Part shown: piece by piece, positions 17,510 to 32,851 of the stretch
Numbering within the stretch: the stretch's first letter is position 1
How the letters are laid out: each line of letters starts with the position of its first letter
NCBI GenBank assembly: GCA_003249025.1
Contig: QBMH01000009.1
Span: forward strand, 1-49,591
Reading direction: 5' to 3'
Length of the DNA stretch: 49,591 bases
Source of the DNA: Leptolyngbya sp.
GTDB lineage: Bacteria > Cyanobacteriota > Cyanobacteriia > Leptolyngbyales > Leptolyngbyaceae
Position numbers and translations under genes: made by a program
The notes under the pieces: generated by a model
Told to the model about the DNA's origin: nothing
Seen by the model: the letters and a program-made list of their open reading frames with translations, nothing else
Databases searched by the model: none

Positions 17510-19816
17510 TTAGACTTTGGATACCGCGACCACGCTAACATCAGGATTGCGATCGAAAATCACTCGCGGTCTGAGGAGAATTCTGAACAACAGCCAGAGC
17601 GATCGCAATTCTCCTGGAGAACAGCGGCTCTTCCATTGACCCGGACGGCAAAACAACATCTCTACCAAACGTCGCTGCTGTTGGAGACTAACGGGTTCAA
17701 ACCGGACTCGAACTGTGGGGAATTCATCCTGAGTACCCGTACAGATTGCCTGTCCTTGCAGCACTAATCCTGATTCCAGAATTTCTAACTCCACCAGAGT
17801 TTCTGCATCCGGCAAAACCTCTTTGCCGTTTATACCCTGAGCAATCATTGGAAATCCTGCTTGAGTTAGAACTACTTCTGCGCCTACCTCCGAGATGGCA
17901 GTAGTATTCCCCCAAAACAGTTGCTCGCCCATTTGCAACCGCACGGTTCGCCGTAGGTCAAACCATTCATATAGGCTAGGGTGGGGAACATCTAATAGCA
18001 CCAGCAGGGAGATTCCGATGGTCATCAGGTTATAGATGCTCCAAATCAATCCCAAATCAAACCCCTTCATCTTCTCAGCCATGACAGGCGACATACTGGG
18101 TTGTCCCATGCCGATCGCCAAACTGATTCCCAGACTCGTCCATAGGCTAAATGCGGTTGCCACAAATACCACAATCAACGGCAAGGCTAATTGCCAATTG
18201 AAAGAGAAGCGATCGCTCGATGTTCCTTTCGGTGTGACGTTGAATCCTTTGCCAAATGGGTTCAACATTGTTTTGATCACGGTCAATGCCAGTGGAAAAC
18301 AGAGAACCAGCGAATAGATATCGGATAGCAATGCTGACCGCGATCGATTGTTGAGCCAAGAAAACACGCTCAGGTTGACTACGTAATAGGGCACAAAGAA
18401 ATATAAGAGATCTGCACCTGTGGCGCGTAATGGAATCACACCCAAAAATGCATACGCCAGCGGCATCAGCAGGAAGCCTACACGGGAAATGCTGGTAAAC
18501 CAGTGCAGTAAGCCTTCCAGATAGGCGAGGCGCTGAATCGGACGCAGACCGGGAATGGTTAGAGGATTGGCTTTCACAAAAAACGCTTGTAAGGTTCCCT
18601 GTGCCCAACGAATTCGCTGTAGTGCTTGATCGGCAATACTTTCAGCCGCCAAACCCGCACTCAACTTCTCATTTAGATAAACCAAGCGATAGCCTTGTGC
18701 CGTTAACCGAATTCCGGTGAAAAAATCTTCGCTAAGGGATTCTGTGACAAAGCCTCCCGTTTCAATCAAGGCAGATCGACGCACGACAAATGAAGTGCCG
18801 GAGCAAATCACCCCACCCGCAGCGTCTCGCATCGGTTGAATCTGACGATAAAACACTTCTTCTTCGGGCGTGAGAATATGTTCTAGCCCTAAATTACGGG
18901 CGATCGGGTCAGGGTTATAAAACGATTGGGGCGTTTGCACTAGAGCAACCTGTGCCTCTTGAAAGAACCCGACTGTGCGGGTGAGAAAGTTCTTTGTAGG
19001 CACAAAGTCGGCATCAAAGACGACAATCAACTCTCCATTGGTGCCCGCAATCGCATGATTCAAGTTTCCGGCTTTGGCATGTCGATTATCGGGTCGGGTG
19101 ATATATTCACAGCCCAAGTCTGCTGCGAGGGTAGCGATTTCAGGTCTGCGCGTGTCGTCTAGCAAGTAAATTGTTTTAGGACTATAATCCAACGCCTGAC
19201 AGCCGATAATGGTGCGCCGTAGGATGAGGGACGGTTCATTATAGGTAGGAATCATAATATCTACTGTTGGGGTAAAAGCACCACTGACCACATTGACCGC
19301 GACGCGATCGGCTTCTGGTCGGCGATCGCGGACTCGCAACAGCAAAACAAGTTGAATGATTCCACCAATCAACAACACTAACTCTAGAAAAAATAATCCC
19401 AGGCTAAACATGCCATTCAATGGCGTACTGAGGTTGAGTGTGGAGAGCGATCGCCACAACAAGTAGCGGACTGTTAGCACAGCCAGAATACCCACTACGA
19501 GAGTTCTTGACCAAGTGCGTGGGCGTGGCGATATCTGCATTACTATCAACACCACCAAGAGCAGTGCCACAGTCCAAAACAGCAGGTATTGTCCCACCAT
19601 CATCGGCGCTTTTATCCACATTGGTGGATGTTCCTGCCACTGATTCAAATGCTGAAAGATCTGGTTAATCGTGCCTTGTCCGGCAAACCAAGCTGTAACG
19701 ACAACACCTGTTATCACCATAACACCGACCATCACTAGGGTGGCAAGCTGAATACGAGAAAATTTCTGCCAAATCAACCAGGGAGAAATCTTCGGATCAA
19801 GTTGAGAAGGAGCCAT
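17510..19816 (-). CDS. Cellulose-synthase-like glycosyltransferase with PilZ domain
   Basis: A 768-residue membrane glycosyltransferase 2 of the BcsA type. Membrane helices occupy about 20-45, 72-95, 105-125 and 135-162. The cytosolic GT2 domain has DD at 221-222, DAD near 269-271, SED at about 363-365 (where BcsA has TED) and the QRIRW signature at about 401-405. Further helices follow at 425-600. The C-terminal PilZ-like domain starts with DLRRTVRLQMGE, the RxxxR half of the cyclic-di-GMP site; the second motif reads AISEVG, with Ala where Asp or Asn is usual. It should polymerise a beta-glucan from UDP-glucose. No bcsB, bcsZ or bcsC gene is beside it. The ATG at 19816 is preferred over the adjacent TTG at 19819. 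Confidence 0.9.
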   Translation of the reverse strand: MAPSQLDPKISPWLIWQKFSRIQLATLVMVGVMVITGVVVTAWFAGQGTINQIFQHLNQWQEHPPMWIKAPMMVGQYLLFWTVALLLVVLIVMQISPRPRTWSRTLVVGILAVLTVRYLLWRSLSTLNLSTPLNGMFSLGLFFLELVLLIGGIIQLVLLLRVRDRRPEADRVAVNVVSGAFTPTVDIMIPTYNEPSLILRRTIIGCQALDYSPKTIYLLDDTRRPEIATLAADLGCEYITRPDNRHAKAGNLNHAIAGTNGELIVVFDADFVPTKNFLTRTVGFFQEAQVALVQTPQSFYNPDPIARNLGLEHILTPEEEVFYRQIQPMRDAAGGVICSGTSFVVRRSALIETGGFVTESLSEDFFTGIRLTAQGYRLVYLNEKLSAGLAAESIADQALQRIRWAQGTLQAFFVKANPLTIPGLRPIQRLAYLEGLLHWFTSISRVGFLLMPLAYAFLGVIPLRATGADLLYFFVPYYVVNLSVFSWLNNRSRSALLSDIYSLVLCFPLALTVIKTMLNPFGKGFNVTPKGTSSDRFSFNWQLALPLIVVFVATAFSLWTSLGISLAIGMGQPSMSPVMAEKMKGFDLGLIWSIYNLMTIGISLLVLLDVPHPSLYEWFDLRRTVRLQMGEQLFWGNTTAISEVGAEVVLTQAGFPMIAQGINGKEVLPDAETLVELEILESGLVLQGQAICTGTQDEFPTVRVRFEPVSLQQQRRLVEMLFCRPGQWKSRCSPGELRSLWLLFRILLRPRVIFDRNPDVSVVAVSKV

Positions 19817-20247
19817 CAATTTGCCCTAATAACAGGAGAATTATTTAAGCCAAGGAATTTCATGATTGATGATTTAGCAATGGCTGAATCACTAGCCTGA
19901 GTTTGTAAGATGAATCTGAGAAGAAGCTGAAAATCCTCTAAATTTATCCTGAAGGGTTTCAACGCGATCGCTGAGCCGAAGATTTTCAGATACTCATTGA
20001 GTTGATATTTCTACAAGTATTCCTCCAAAAATCTACTTCATCAGTAGATTCAGTCTCGGTGGTTTTTTGATTGGCTAATCAGATAGTTTCTTTTCTCACC
20101 GACTCATTATATTGCTCTACTTTATTTTTAACCTTTTTCTCATTCAGCCCATTTGAGTTCACTTTAATCTACATCTAACTAGATGTAATTCGTGTCTTCA
20201 ACTGACTGAATTCATCTAATCCAACAAATTTTTAAGGAGTTTTTCCA
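19817..20247. promoter_or_regulatory. Divergent control region with palindromic operator-like site
   Basis: This 430-bp spacer separates the glycosyltransferase and the Met-rich gene. A perfect palindrome TACATCTA-AC-TAGATGTA lies at 20170-20187, about 60 bp before the GTG start, beside a TTGAGT box near 20153 that could be a -35 element. A second smaller repeat TCTAC...GTAGA occurs near 20030-20047. An AAGGAG ribosome site is at 20233-20238. It is probably a regulated promoter for the secreted Met-rich protein. Confidence 0.55.
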
Positions 20248-26837: not shown

Positions 26838-27067
26838 AGCGTGTCCTTTATGGTACCGCCTCCTTCAAACTGCCCTATGCTCTAGCAGACGAAGAGTGGC
26901 TACCTTGGCACCCTCAATAGTTTTTCTGTACCCATCGCTTTAGCGAGGTTTAATCGATCACCGAGAGGTCGTCTGTGAAAATCAAAATTGTCTGCGGTGG
27001 CTGATTTTAATCGATCTCCGCCGCTTGCCGCTAAAATGGAAGCCTATTGTTGTGCAAGAAAGTTTCC

Positions 27068-28558
27068 ATGACCGCATCGGCTCCCGCAAAAACGCAGTAT
27101 GAGGCAGTGATTGGGTTGGAAACTCACTGTCAACTCAATACAAATACCAAAATTTTCTCTCCTAGCTCAACCAAGTTTGGCGAACCGCCCAACACTTTAA
27201 TTGACCCCGTCTGCATGGGTTTACCCGGAACATTGCCCGTATTGAATCAGGCGGTGTTGGAATCTTCGGTGAAAATGGGGCTTGCCTTAAACTGTCAAAT
27301 TGCTCCCTATAGTAAGTTCGATCGCAAACAGTATTTCTATCCCGATCTGCCAAAGAACTACCAAATTTCTCAGTACGATTTGCCGATCGCAGAACATGGC
27401 TTTTTAAACATTGAACTCTACGATAAAGAAACCGGAACTGCCACTCATAAGCGGATTGGTGTGACCCGACTGCACATGGAAGAAGATGCGGGAAAGCTAG
27501 TGCATGGCGGCGGTGAAAGGCTTTCAGGATCTACCTACTCGCTAGTTGACTACAACCGGGCAGGGGTGCCGCTGATGGAAATTGTCTCTGAACCCGATAT
27601 TCGCACGGGTCAGGAGGCGGCCGAATATGCCCAAGAAATTCGCCGGATTGTGCGATATTTGGGCGTTGGCGATGGCAATATGCAAGAAGGGTCGCTGCGC
27701 TGTGATGTGAATATTTCCGTGCGTCCGGTGGGGCAACAAGAGTTTGGCACGAAGGTGGAGATCAAAAATATGAACTCCTTCAGTGCCATTCAGCGGGCGA
27801 TCGAATATGAAATCGAGCGTCAGATTGCAGCGGTTGAAGCAGGCGAAACGCTGGTACAAGAGACGCGCCTCTGGGAGGAAGGCTCTCAGCGCACAATTAG
27901 TATGCGGAAAAAAGAGGGATCTAGCGACTATCGCTATTTCCCAGAACCCGACTTAGGACCGATTGAAGTCTCTGCGGCGCAATTAGCAGAGTGGAGATCG
28001 CAACTGCCTGAACTGCCTGCTCAAAAGCGTCAGCGCTACACCACCGAGTTGGGCTTGTCAGTTTATGATGCCCGTGTGTTGACCAACGACCGAGCGACAA
28101 CAGAATACTTTGAAGCGGCGATCGCGGCAGGCGCTTCGGCAAAACTGGCGGCAAACTGGATTATGGGTGACTTAGGCGCTTACCTCAATAGCAATGCCCA
28201 CCTCAGCATTGGTGAGTTGCCCTTAAAACCAGAGAGTTTGGCAGAACTGATTGGACTCATTGAAGATCGCACCATTAGCAACGCGGCGGCTAAAACCATT
28301 TTGCAAGAACTGCTGACTGAAGGCGGTTCAGCAAAAGCGATCGTAGCGCGGGATGGATTAGGGCAAATTTCGGATACGGGCGCGTTAGAAAGCGCGATCG
28401 ACGAAGTATTAAACGAAAACCCGAAGGAACTAGAACAGTATCGGGGTGGCAAAACCAAGCTATTAGGATTTTTTGTCGGTCAAGTGATGAAAAAAACTGG
28501 AGGTCGCGCCGATCCTAAACTGACCAATCAATTAGTTAGCAAAAAACTAAACGGCTAA
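27068..28558 (+). CDS. gatB: Asp-tRNA(Asn)/Glu-tRNA(Gln) amidotransferase subunit B
   Basis: GatB binds and activates mischarged tRNA for transamidation with GatA and GatC. The 496-residue length is normal. Visible landmarks are EAVIGLETHCQLNT, VCMGLPGTLPVLN, the zinc/cradle region RKQYFYPDLPKNYQISQYD, EMHMEEDAGK-like HMEEDAGK, and the tail KTGGRADPKLTNQLV. The ATG at 27068 is preferred to the upstream in-frame TTG at 27047. gatA and gatC are not nearby, as is common in cyanobacteria. Confidence 0.97.
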   Translation: MTASAPAKTQYEAVIGLETHCQLNTNTKIFSPSSTKFGEPPNTLIDPVCMGLPGTLPVLNQAVLESSVKMGLALNCQIAPYSKFDRKQYFYPDLPKNYQISQYDLPIAEHGFLNIELYDKETGTATHKRIGVTRLHMEEDAGKLVHGGGERLSGSTYSLVDYNRAGVPLMEIVSEPDIRTGQEAAEYAQEIRRIVRYLGVGDGNMQEGSLRCDVNISVRPVGQQEFGTKVEIKNMNSFSAIQRAIEYEIERQIAAVEAGETLVQETRLWEEGSQRTISMRKKEGSSDYRYFPEPDLGPIEVSAAQLAEWRSQLPELPAQKRQRYTTELGLSVYDARVLTNDRATTEYFEAAIAAGASAKLAANWIMGDLGAYLNSNAHLSIGELPLKPESLAELIGLIEDRTISNAAAKTILQELLTEGGSAKAIVARDGLGQISDTGALESAIDEVLNENPKELEQYRGGKTKLLGFFVGQVMKKTGGRADPKLTNQLVSKKLNG

Positions 28559-28676
28559 GCTAGAAGCCTTTCCTGCTAGACGTTGCAGCCCCAGACATGT
28601 CCTATGAAATGTCTAAATATCACAGCGCTAAAAGACGAAAGAGAAATTTCTTTACAAAAACATCATCAATAAGGGG

Positions 28677-28706
28677 TGACACCCCCCACCCCTGAAGTGG
28701 CATAAT
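28677..28706 (+). promoter_or_regulatory. Sigma-70-type promoter before putative small RNA
   Basis: TGACAC (28677-28682) and CATAAT (28701-28706) are 18 bp apart. A start near 28713 is predicted, with no gene between it and the terminator. Confidence 0.5.
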
Positions 28707-28712
28707 GTGATG

Positions 28713-28767
28713 AGTAGATGCACCCTGATGATAGGGAGAGACGCTTAGCGCCTCTCCCTTTTTTTTT
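28713..28767 (+). ncRNA. Putative small RNA, copy 1 (about 55 nt)
   Basis: Between a promoter-like element and a perfect terminator lies a short unit: motif GTAGATGCACCCT (28714-28726), six bases, then a hairpin (28733-28744 / 28748-28759, one A-C mismatch) and nine T's. The same 13-nt motif plus spacer plus hairpin plus T-run occurs on the minus strand at 29302-29354. It does not match the Yfr1 or Yfr2 signatures I remember. Transcription is inferred. Confidence 0.5.
28733..28767 (+). terminator. Strong intrinsic terminator
   Basis: Stem AGGGAGAGACGC / GCGCCTCTCCCT around TTA, followed by nine T's. Confidence 0.9.
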
Positions 28768-28875
28768 GAAATTTTGTCGAAGCCGTGATCGCCTGTCTAG
28801 TACACATCAGTGCAGAGTGTTTCGTAGGCAGTGTTTTGAATTTCCCCTGCAACCTGCAACCCGCCTTCTGCCCCC

Positions 28876-29193
28876 CTAATTCGTTTCTGCCAATACTTCC
28901 TGTAAGCGGCTTCTAAACTCTCCTTTGGGATGCCCACCTTTCACTTCACCCAAAACTTTAAAGTCTTCTGATTCTGGCGAGTCACAAATCAGATAAGTGG
29001 GCCACCCCATTTCAGCTTTATCTGGATATTGGGTTAACAAAATCTTTCGGTATTTACGATAAGTGGCAAGATCTTGCATTTTGCAGTCAATAAACTGTAA
29101 CCCTAGTTCTTCTGCCACTTTTTGGTCATAAAATGCCATCTTGTGGCAAATTCCGCAGTCTTCCGAAGAGAATTTAATCACGGCTCGGTTCAT
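28876..29193 (-). CDS. Thioredoxin-like protein
   Basis: A 105-residue thioredoxin-fold protein with the redox motif CGIC at residues 13-16 (SSEDCGICHKM) in place of CGPC, and the cis-proline region MGWPTYLIC. It belongs to small cyanobacterial thioredoxin-family proteins with an unusual active-site pair; redox partner unknown. It is alone on the minus strand between the two copies of the putative small RNA. Confidence 0.87.
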   Translation of the reverse strand: MNRAVIKFSSEDCGICHKMAFYDQKVAEELGLQFIDCKMQDLATYRKYRKILLTQYPDKAEMGWPTYLICDSPESEDFKVLGEVKGGHPKGEFRSRLQEVLAETN

Positions 29194-29301
29194 TAGTGGG
29201 GTACTCCTACGTCATTTGCTGACTACTATCCACTTCTAAACCTAGCTAAGATAGAAGCACACCGAATAAATTTTTTAGTAGCTTATGAAAGTTCTAATTA
29301 G

Positions 29302-29354
29302 AAAAATACCCTAACCCATTACGGGGTCAGGGTACTAAATTAGGGTGCATCTAC
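29302..29354 (-). ncRNA. Putative small RNA, copy 2
   Basis: Read on the minus strand: motif GTAGATGCACCCT (29354-29342), a seven-base spacer, hairpin TACCCTGACCCC / GGGTTAGGGTA (29334-29307) and TTTTT. The arrangement equals copy 1 although the hairpin sequences differ. No convincing promoter is seen upstream; the 5' end is not defined. Confidence 0.42.
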
Positions 29355-29506
29355 CAATTCATCATTCCTAGTAAGGAGGAAGCAGTCCGGATGGTTTCTA
29401 AAAAATCTAGAGTGTGGAAAATGATAGGAAGTTTTGAGAGCGATCGCCGCGATTCATGAAGTGATCTCTAAGCGATCACACTTAGTAAACTGACACAGTG
29501 GTGATT

Positions 29507-29800: not shown

Positions 29801-32800
29801 GTGACCCAGGAATTTCACCTTTCTGTCACGCCAATTCGAGAAAATGAATATTTGGTGCGAACTGAAGACGTTGCGCCCGGTGTGCCGTTGGCAGAAGAAC
29901 AGGTCATTTGGTCTGTTGAGGATTGGTTGACCGAAGCTAGTTTGTTAATGGACGACCCGCTACTTGGCTTGCTGCGCCATCAAACTATGGGGAGTGGATT
30001 CAATTCTGCATCCCTGCGATCGCCCACTGATGGCATATCGACTAATCTAGCGACCTTTGGGCAGCGGCTTTACGATGCCGTCTTTCAAGGCACCATTCGA
30101 GATAGCTGGATGACCGCTCAAGGCATTGCCCAACATCGACGAGAACGGCTGCGCTTTCGGCTGGGATTGAAAGGAACACGGCTGCATCGATTACCCTGGG
30201 AAGTGCTGTATGCCGGCGATCGCCCCCTAGCAACCGGAACCGATGTGGTCTTTTCCCGCTATCACTCCAGCTTCTCCATTGTCAAATCTCACCTTTCTGA
30301 CCAAAAGAACTTTTTCAATGAATCGCCCTCTACCCTCAAAATTCTCATGGTGTTGGCGGTTCCAGCCGATCAAGATGCATTGGCTTTAAAGCAAGAAGCA
30401 GAACAGCTAAAACAAGAACTGCAAGCATCCTCTGGGAGTCACAGTCATCCCAGTATTGATCTAACCATCTTAGAGCAGCCTGGACGGGAGCAACTGACCC
30501 AAGCCCTAGAACATAACCACTACCACGTCTTACACTACGCCGGACACAGCAACCTCAGCGCTGCGGGAGGCAATATTTATCTAGTCAATCATCGTACTGG
30601 ATTAAGTGAGGCGTTGAGTGGCGACGATCTAGCAGGGTTGTTGGTCAATAACGGCATTCGCATGGCGGTGTTTAATTCCTGTCGAGGAGGATATTCAGCA
30701 ACAGCAGCCTCTAGCAGTGAAGCGGAAGGCAATCTAGCTGAGGCACTGGTCAAACGAGGGATTCCGGCAGTTCTGGCGATGGCAGAGCGTATTCCTGATG
30801 AGGTGGCGCTCAACCTGAGTCGGCTATTTTATCGCAATTTGAAGCAAGGCTATCCGGTGGATCTCAGCTTGAGTCGATCGCGTCAAGGGTTAATTTCTTC
30901 CTATGGCTCCGATCAGCTTTATTGGGCACTGCCAATTCTTTATTTGCATCCTAAATTTGATGGCTATCTTCAGCCTATTGCAGCCAGCGTGGTTAATCAT
31001 GGCATGTCTTTGGATGCCCCATCTTCTGGTGGACTCTATGATGGCAGTGATATACAAATGCCTCAATTGCCACTGCCTCAAAGCATTTCAGGGCGATCGC
31101 AGCCAGCAGAAAATCCTTTCTCCCAGCCTCAGGCTGGGAGCAGCGAAGCAGATTACTTGCTAGATTTTGATGAACTGGAGTTTGAAGACCTTGAGTTTTC
31201 AGTGGAAGAAGACGATGTGATCAAACTGGTAAATGCTCTAGAAAAAGCGAAGGAACTGGAGCGTACCGAAGAACAAGATCCGGCATCCCGTTGGATGTAT
31301 GAGATGTCTGATAGCCCAACGGTACTAGAACCAGAGGAACCCTTACTGCCTGCGATTCCGGGCGAAGATTTGTTTTCTGATGGCGACGCAGATACAAAGC
31401 TAGAAGACGATTGGACGTTGCCAGATAGTCCCTCGATACCGCCTTCTGGGGAACCAGGTGGCTATTCCAATCGGGCGTTTTTATCCTGCTCGAATCGCAC
31501 TGCCACCGCAACGATCGCCCAAGCGGTGGATGTGAAAGTCTGTTCTGAACTAACAACCGTGCTGGCAGAGATGGGCACTTTGACCGCCGCGATCGCGGCA
31601 GGAAACCGAGCCGTTCAGTTAAACCCAACCAGCGCTGAGGCGTATATTAATCTGGGGTGGGCGCTCTATCAGCAAGGCTATCTAGCGGAGGCGATCGCAG
31701 CTTACCAACAAGCGCTGCAACTCGATTTCCGTTCGCCACTTACCTACAATCGATTAGGGTTGGCGCTGTATCAGCAAGGCAACCTGAGTGAGGCTGTGCA
31801 AGCATATACCCACGCAGTTGAGCTAGATCCACACTATACCGATGCCAGCAACAATCTGAAAGCCTTGTTGTATCGCCCTAGCCTATCTTCTTCCCTACCA
31901 GCAACAGTGCCAGCGTCATCCCCAGCAACAGTGCCAGCGTCATCGCCAGCAACAGTGCCAGCGTCATTGACTACCACTCTAGGTGCGCCTATTCGCCCCC
32001 CGACGGACAGTGCTGACAAAACCTCAGCAACCAAGCCCCAGCGATCGCTGTTTTGGTTAGGCTCCGGCATTTTTGCTTTATCTGCGGTGTTAGGCGGGTG
32101 GGCGTTTCATGCCCAAATTTTAGATGCGATTCCTAGCATTCCTTTACCTGCGAACCTTTCCCCCAGTCCTAATCCATCCGGTAGTAAAAATGACTTGAGT
32201 CAAACTAGTTCTGCGGCTTTAGTCACTCTAGCCACCGAGCAGATTAGTCAAGGCAATATTGCACAGGCGCAACCTGCGATCGAATTACTGCTAGATCGAC
32301 CCTCGTATAATGAACCAGAAGCCGTTCTGAATGCTGTTTCTGGCAAGGATGCAGCGAATCCAACCATCAATTTCCTCAAAGGCAGATTGGCATGGAAACG
32401 CTGGCTAGAAGGCGATCGCACCTATAGCATTAAAAAAGCACGTCAATTTTGGGATGCCGGATTAAAAGTTCAACCCAACCCCCACTATCAAAATGCCCTA
32501 GGGTTTGCTTACTATGCTGAGGGCAGGTTTGATCTCGCGGAGCAAGCCTGGTTGCAAGCGCTGAATTTATCTGGAGAAAACCCAAATTCTGTTAGTGCAA
32601 ACCCTGCTGTGAATGCTGCCCCCAATCGAGAAATCCTACAATCCTATGCAGGTCTAGCGCTGACATCACTCAAACTGGCAGATAAGCAACCGCCAGAAAA
32701 GCAAGCCGCTGCTCGTAGCATTGCACTAAAACTACGGCAACGAATTATGACCGCTGACCCCGTAAATTTTGCCCCCGCAGCGTTGCGATTGAATTGGATG

Positions 32801-32851
32801 TGGTCTGAAAAAACCATTCAAGATTGGAAATTATTGTTAGCCATGAAATGA
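29801..32851 (+). CDS. CHAT protease with TPR repeats and membrane anchor
   Basis: A 1016-residue protein. An N-terminal part (1-170) leads into a CHAT (caspase-like) domain (about 180-385) with the catalytic dyad H249 (LHYAGHSN) and C294 (FNSCRGGY). An acidic linker (450-560) follows. Two TPRs lie near 600-687 (AYINLGWALYQQG, TYNRLGLALYQQG), then a PATVPASS x3 linker, a membrane segment near 750-769 (LFWLGSGIFALSAVLGGWAF), and a C-terminal helical repeat region that also looks TPR-like. It may be a membrane-bound protease activated by a partner that binds the TPRs. The start is GTG at 29801 with a GGAGGA site. Its 3' end overlaps the convergent membrane-protein gene by 34 bp. Confidence 0.9.
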   Translation: MTQEFHLSVTPIRENEYLVRTEDVAPGVPLAEEQVIWSVEDWLTEASLLMDDPLLGLLRHQTMGSGFNSASLRSPTDGISTNLATFGQRLYDAVFQGTIRDSWMTAQGIAQHRRERLRFRLGLKGTRLHRLPWEVLYAGDRPLATGTDVVFSRYHSSFSIVKSHLSDQKNFFNESPSTLKILMVLAVPADQDALALKQEAEQLKQELQASSGSHSHPSIDLTILEQPGREQLTQALEHNHYHVLHYAGHSNLSAAGGNIYLVNHRTGLSEALSGDDLAGLLVNNGIRMAVFNSCRGGYSATAASSSEAEGNLAEALVKRGIPAVLAMAERIPDEVALNLSRLFYRNLKQGYPVDLSLSRSRQGLISSYGSDQLYWALPILYLHPKFDGYLQPIAASVVNHGMSLDAPSSGGLYDGSDIQMPQLPLPQSISGRSQPAENPFSQPQAGSSEADYLLDFDELEFEDLEFSVEEDDVIKLVNALEKAKELERTEEQDPASRWMYEMSDSPTVLEPEEPLLPAIPGEDLFSDGDADTKLEDDWTLPDSPSIPPSGEPGGYSNRAFLSCSNRTATATIAQAVDVKVCSELTTVLAEMGTLTAAIAAGNRAVQLNPTSAEAYINLGWALYQQGYLAEAIAAYQQALQLDFRSPLTYNRLGLALYQQGNLSEAVQAYTHAVELDPHYTDASNNLKALLYRPSLSSSLPATVPASSPATVPASSPATVPASLTTTLGAPIRPPTDSADKTSATKPQRSLFWLGSGIFALSAVLGGWAFHAQILDAIPSIPLPANLSPSPNPSGSKNDLSQTSSAALVTLATEQISQGNIAQAQPAIELLLDRPSYNEPEAVLNAVSGKDAANPTINFLKGRLAWKRWLEGDRTYSIKKARQFWDAGLKVQPNPHYQNALGFAYYAEGRFDLAEQAWLQALNLSGENPNSVSANPAVNAAPNREILQSYAGLALTSLKLADKQPPEKQAAARSIALKLRQRIMTADPVNFAPAALRLNWMWSEKTIQDWKLLLAMK
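31898..31969. repeat. 24-bp minisatellite, three copies
   Basis: Three tandem copies starting ccagcaacagtgccagcgtc encode PATVPASS three times between the TPRs and the membrane segment of the CHAT protein. They differ by only one or two bases, so copy number may vary between strains. Confidence 0.9.

Follow-up and report, generated by a model that had tools for sequence, protein, structure and literature searches.

Two NsiR1-type small RNA genes near gatB and hetF in Leptolyngbya sp., one of them preceded by a putative HetR operator

The window, i.e. the whole stretch of 49,591 nucleotides that was analysed, carries two short elements at close distance. Copy 1 (28712-28768, plus strand) follows gatB, which encodes the Asp/Glu-tRNA amidotransferase subunit B (27047-28558, plus strand; Pfam GatB_N and GatB_Yqey, NCBIfam gatB) and is its conserved 5′ neighbour. 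Copy 2 (29300-29356, minus strand) is encoded upstream of and divergently from a gene for a CHAT-TPR protein (29801-32851, plus strand). Between the elements lies a gene for a thioredoxin-like protein (28876-29193, minus strand), whose product had no match in Pfam or NCBIfam and which adjoins hetF and a D-type NsiR1 gene (see below) in many genomes.

An earlier note on this DNA had described the elements as small-RNA-like units that share a conserved, unpaired stretch at the 5′ end but differ in the sequence of their terminator hairpins. The shared 13-mer GTAGATGCACCCT is found exactly at 28714-28726 on the plus strand and at 29354-29342 on the minus strand, and no further copy at zero mismatches exists in the window. 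As confirmed from sequence and fold, a spacer separates both occurrences from a strong hairpin, behind which a T-run follows. The terminator hairpin of copy 1 (28733-28759, plus strand, T-run to 28768) has a folding energy of -17.6 kcal/mol (z -2.9) and that of copy 2 (29305-29336, minus strand) one of -21.9 kcal/mol (z -3.6), with the 5′ part being predicted as fully open in copy 1 and mostly open in copy 2. When one intergenic region was shuffled and compared to the other, a common 13-mer was obtained in 89 of 20000 shuffles. Since in addition both copies match one and the same Rfam family, the shared 13-mer is not a product of chance. Conservation in relatives, the terminators and covariation, with compensatory changes in 6 of the 10 pairs of the copy 1 hairpin, agree with the described layout.

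The RNA itself, which the earlier note did not recognise as Yfr1, Yfr2, 6S or tmRNA, is of a known kind, and an unknown family is ruled out by the Rfam match. The only family matched in the window by Rfam is NsiR1 (RF02399), at 29300-29356 on the minus strand with 51.2 bits (E 7e-9) and thus above the gathering cut-off of 39 bits. Copy 2 is therefore a bona fide NsiR1. Copy 1 was matched upon relaxing the threshold and remained below the cut-off with 35.4 bits (E 5.8e-5), while two of its orthologues exceed it (41.7 and 39.6 bits). A model built from copy 1 including its promoter, called R1 in the following, gave 115.7 bits for copy 1. Judged from their sequences, both elements are genes for small RNAs of the NsiR1 family, with copy 1 representing a related but distinct subfamily.

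NsiR1 of Anabaena sp. PCC 7120 is a nitrogen-stress-induced small RNA that is present in 12 copies upstream of hetF, is transcribed from DIF1 promoters and depends on HetR (PMC9045159). The gene at 29801-32851 is hetF, a cell division and HetR-level factor (NF045509 CellDiv_HetF, E 5e-245, under cut-off; Pfam CHAT and TPR), and copy 2 therefore sits, divergent from hetF, where an NsiR1 is expected. Its DIF1 box TCCGGA is located at 29386-29391 on the minus strand and thus at -38 relative to the T of TAGATG. Copy 2 is a single copy rather than part of a tandem array, which Rfam does not require; long NsiR1 arrays are found at heterocystous loci such as L088, L091 and L092. The host hetF scored below the cut-off of the HetF model (815.6 versus 1200), and it contains a tandem PATVPASS repeat after the TPR part (31834-32070 in the window, seen in the list of opposite-strand open reading frames).

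The two elements had also been described as a duplicated unit flanking the thioredoxin-like gene and as a convergent pair that could act on common target mRNAs. Comparison with relatives argues against the duplicated unit and against the pair as a unit. In a genome of the same genus (G001) gatB with copy 1 and the thioredoxin-like gene with copy 2 are found on different contigs, and in G015 gatB and the thioredoxin-like gene are 431 kb apart on one contig. A local duplication around the thioredoxin-like gene is ruled out by this lack of linkage, and for the same reason the convergent pair is not a functional unit. The gatB-linked and the hetF-linked copies are two separate, anciently diverged loci that lie side by side here by chance. 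Copy 1 is linked to gatB in relatives and lies near hetF only in the host genome.

To characterize copy 1 further, gatB loci of relatives were gathered by a GatB search and then inspected nearby for the seed alone, such that the promoter was no criterion of selection. The RNA recurred 3′ of gatB at 18 of the 30 loci, with 19 copies in total. In all 19 the segment GUAGAUGCACCCUGAU (28714-28729, plus strand), which is unpaired in the fold of copy 1, is invariant. The conserved -10 element together with the segment AAGTAGATGCACCCTGATGAT is likewise found in 19 of 19; for copy 1 the -10 element is CATAAT (28701-28706, plus strand), located within a block GGCATAcTGTG that is conserved in the alignment. 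A promoter of the form TGACAC-18-CATAAT, as proposed earlier, is present upstream of copy 1. Its TGACAC half constitutes, however, the centre of a palindrome of which the arms and not the centre are conserved in relatives.

This palindrome, GGGGTGACACCCC (28673-28685, plus strand), contains the GGGN5CCC core of the HetR consensus (PMC4192349), and the core starts 41 nt upstream of the T in TAGATG. With the A two bases upstream of GGGN5CCC that characterizes HetR operators, the site reads AGGGGTGACACCC (28672-28684). Its arms are invariant: GGGT-N4-CCCC occurs at the same place in 19 of 19 gatB-linked homologues, with varying bases in between. The host genome of 5.46 Mb contains AGGGGTNNNACCCC at only two sites, one of them being the copy 1 palindrome. 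The other (L185, G000:C33:29750-29763) is intergenic between convergent open reading frames, with no NsiR1 match nearby. In homologues from Tolypothrix (L236) and Scytonema (L237) the palindrome is GAGGGGTGACACCCCTC, and both arms equal those of the HetR site of hetP, GAGGGGTCTAACCCCTC; in many Nostocaceae-like genomes it is degenerate by one base. The palindrome takes the place of a DIF1 promoter at copy 1 and resembles a site to which the developmental regulator HetR binds directly, conserved even in non-heterocystous filamentous species.

All loci fetched yielded 312 distinct units, which fall into two promoter classes: 227 carry DIF1 (D-type), 62 the HetR core (H-type), none both and 23 neither, counts that are partly shaped by gathering units with model R1, which leaves the 19 gatB-linked copies unaffected. 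Several of the 23 units without a class are degenerate forms. Exact TCCGGA is found only at -37 to -39 (all 184 exact occurrences), and 59 of the 62 units with the HetR core have it at -41. The transcripts differ as well: D-type RNAs have TGG before the common segment and mostly A or T after it, while H-type RNAs have mostly AAG or ATG before it and G after it. With these class-specific bases the gatB-linked H-type branch appears as a separate, deeply conserved subfamily. H-type tandems of 2 to 4 or more copies 3′ of gatB, i.e. a second, smaller NsiR1-type array, were seen in several genomes (L173 in G011, L231 in G342, L218 in G391, and L241/L246 in Calothrix brevissima NIES-22).

The distribution across genomes follows that of hetR. 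Among 386 cyanobacterial genomes NsiR1 was found above cut-off in 80 and hetR in 80, with 78 genomes having both, 304 neither, 2 only hetR and 2 only strong NsiR1; the two genomes with hetR only contain strong H-type matches. For the set of relatives the corresponding numbers were 48 with both, 8 with neither and 2 with NsiR1 only. The agreement with nifK was worse than with hetR (58 both, 22 NsiR1 only, 16 nifK only), which rules out that NsiR1 simply tracks nitrogen fixation. Model R1 matched 79 of the 80 hetR-positive genomes as well as 11 of 11 named genomes tried, including the heterocyst formers Nostoc carneum NIES-2107, Calothrix brevissima NIES-22 and Anabaenopsis elenkinii, and 21 of the 30 R1 loci fetched adjoin gatB. 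For the best R1 match per hetR-positive genome (n = 78) the exact core was at the expected place in 54 and a few bases nearer in 4, while 19 had one mismatch, mostly in the family with long NsiR1 arrays; in G323 the best match was a degenerate copy.

hetR was not detected in 7 genomes with an R1 match, of which 6, representing only two lineages, retain the RNA body without the palindrome. The H-type copies of the hetR-less genus g63 (L252, G139:C1:2922682-2922777; L305-L308) and of G061 (L253, G061:C36:42790-42890) kept body and terminator and lost the palindrome. It was retained in G268 (320 contigs, 11 NsiR1 matches), where no hetR was detected. The link between palindrome and HetR thereby appears stronger from the contrast of genomes with and without hetR than from motif similarity alone. 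NsiR1 above the Rfam cut-off in absence of a detected hetR was seen in G040, G054, G345 and G268, which may be due to an assembly gap, a divergent hetR or hetR loss; the G040 copy adjoining the thioredoxin-like gene retains TCCGGA.

Judged by the thioredoxin-like protein, the closest named relatives of the host belong to the Leptolyngbyaceae. The host genome contains hetR. nifK is absent, the best match having an E value of 6e-6 compared to about 1e-250 for genuine full-length nifK (the assembly is 99% complete). Nitrogen-fixing heterocysts are therefore very unlikely in the host, and the HetR-linked small RNA pair would thus be found outside heterocyst development.

We consider it quite probable that the two elements form a small RNA pair of the HetR regulon that shares the same 5′ segment and is switched on along two routes, copy 2 through DIF1 and HetZ and copy 1 through a direct HetR operator. 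Each element would give rise to a trans-acting RNA of about 57 nt from its own promoter and with its own terminator, both with GUAGAUGCACCCU as the unpaired 5′ segment and, in most cases, GAU directly after it. Copy 2 would be transcribed from its DIF1 promoter, a type that requires HetZ in Anabaena, where hetZ is in turn regulated by HetR via a HetR-recognition site (PMC7377430). At copy 1 HetR would bind directly to the GGGN5CCC operator overlapping the -35 region. Active HetR would thus turn on both RNAs, which would block translation by pairing at mRNA initiation regions. In agreement with such a mode of action, NsiR1 acts through pairing at translation starts and represses in Nostoc hetF (as antisense RNA) and the hetP-like alr3234 post-transcriptionally (PMC9045159); copy 2 may additionally pair as an antisense RNA with a long leader of hetF. 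As a trans target of the shared segment, the hetF initiation region found no support, ranking 20th in pairing among 32 start regions of the window. The top rank was taken by the start of the gene at 17510-19819 (minus strand), in a ranking from one genome with no conservation filter.

HetR binding to the copy 1 palindrome is suggested by its likeness to known operators. The GGGN5CCC core is required according to crystal structures (PMC4192349) and is shared with the HetR operators of hetP (GAGGGGTCTAACCCCTC) and hetZ (GGGTCTAgCCCagCA), with identical arms in some homologues; the latter two precede protein genes while the copy 1 site precedes a small RNA. HetR sites newly predicted from ChIP in Anabaena gave no distinct gel shifts (PMC4192349). 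If bound, HetR could also act in the opposite direction, such that vegetative cells produce the copy 1 RNA and high HetR silences it, contrary to copy 2. A protein bound at the -35 region, with which the site overlaps, can keep RNA polymerase off the promoter, derepression of a gene in a hetR mutant has been reported (PMC4192349), and in hetR-less lineages the RNA persists without the palindrome. Still, we regard repression as rather doubtful and activation as the likelier sign, because outside the palindrome the -10 element is conserved but a -35 hexamer is not, which suggests an activator-dependent promoter.

That HetR plays no role at all, with both copies being ordinary NsiR1 and the palindrome being the hairpin at the end of the gatB transcript, seems improbable to us. 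The palindrome can be folded into a short hairpin 3′ of gatB, and copy 1 does score as NsiR1 (see above). It is, however, not followed by a T-run, its distance to the start of the small RNA is fixed, and only the HetR-contact triplets, the inner T and the outer C are invariant. Furthermore, it is kept in homologues whose fetched flanks contain no gatB (L209, L210, L213) and missing in G061, which has gatB and lacks hetR. Even less credible is a reading of the elements as tiny mRNAs in which ATGCACCCTGAT starts a leaderless micro-peptide (MHPD...). ATG CAC CCT GAT is indeed present in most units, but the frames end differently, with MHPNLVP being encoded by copy 2 and MHPD by L001 and the frame of copy 1 meeting no stop ahead of the terminator, and the changes after the conserved segment are of the base-pairing kind.

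Regulation of both RNAs by HetR, which we favour, can be set against what is known of the family. Both copies resemble NsiR1 of Nostoc/Anabaena sp. PCC 7120 in size, 5′ segment (UGGUAGAUGCACCCUGAU) and terminator layout, and copy 2 also in its DIF1 promoter, its strand and its place beside hetF. The host differs in having single scattered copies instead of a 12-copy array and in lacking nifK, and copy 1 differs in its HetR-type operator instead of DIF1, its position by gatB and the class-specific bases that flank the segment on either side. NsiR1 is thus already known, as is an NsiR1-like RNA in a non-heterocystous cyanobacterium: the accessible part of the account of Limnospira indica PCC 8005, which is filamentous and does not fix nitrogen, describes RNA162 as a 57-nt small RNA in RNA-seq data (PMC8400943). 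That part discusses one annotated RNA and does not report promoter class or gatB linkage. For the copy of N. spumigena, no TSS is given in the accessible part of the TSS paper on that species. A gatB-linked NsiR1 branch with a HetR site was described nowhere in the open-access literature that our search covered; an earlier notice, e.g. in the original NsiR1 papers of subscription journals or among NsiR2, NsiR8, NsiR9 and 4547237r of Anabaena PCC 7120, is possible.

The role of HetR in filamentous cyanobacteria without any heterocysts has been called a mystery (PMC11298460). We lean slightly towards the idea that HetR, in its original function and before there were heterocysts, directly controlled among others a gatB-linked NsiR1-type RNA, and that of two paralogous RNAs with a common pairing segment in the HetR regulon of filamentous cyanobacteria, one read by HetR and one by HetZ/DIF1, mainly the latter was amplified into arrays by heterocyst formers. 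A HetR-type operator upstream of a deeply conserved small RNA represents a concrete and easily tested candidate for a direct target in non-heterocystous filamentous species, and it suggests that regulation by small RNAs belonged to the HetR system already before heterocysts arose. The widespread 5′ segment needs targets beyond the known heterocyst-specific ones, and with the Rfam cut-off a large part of one branch of the family goes unnoticed.

In total the host has four good NsiR1-type genes. Besides copies 1 and 2 these are D-type genes in the gap between cobM-like and lgt (L180, G000:C333:6413-6465) and in the gap that has thrB on one side and an NlpC/P60 cell-wall gene on the other (L181, G000:C244:18813-18864). 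The cobM-lgt site of D-type NsiR1 recurs in relatives (L015, L025, L033). A weak match of 26.8 bits with an altered seed, GTGTACCCTGTT, and a terminator-like hairpin (L005, G000:C351:5237-5296) is possibly a decayed NsiR1 copy.
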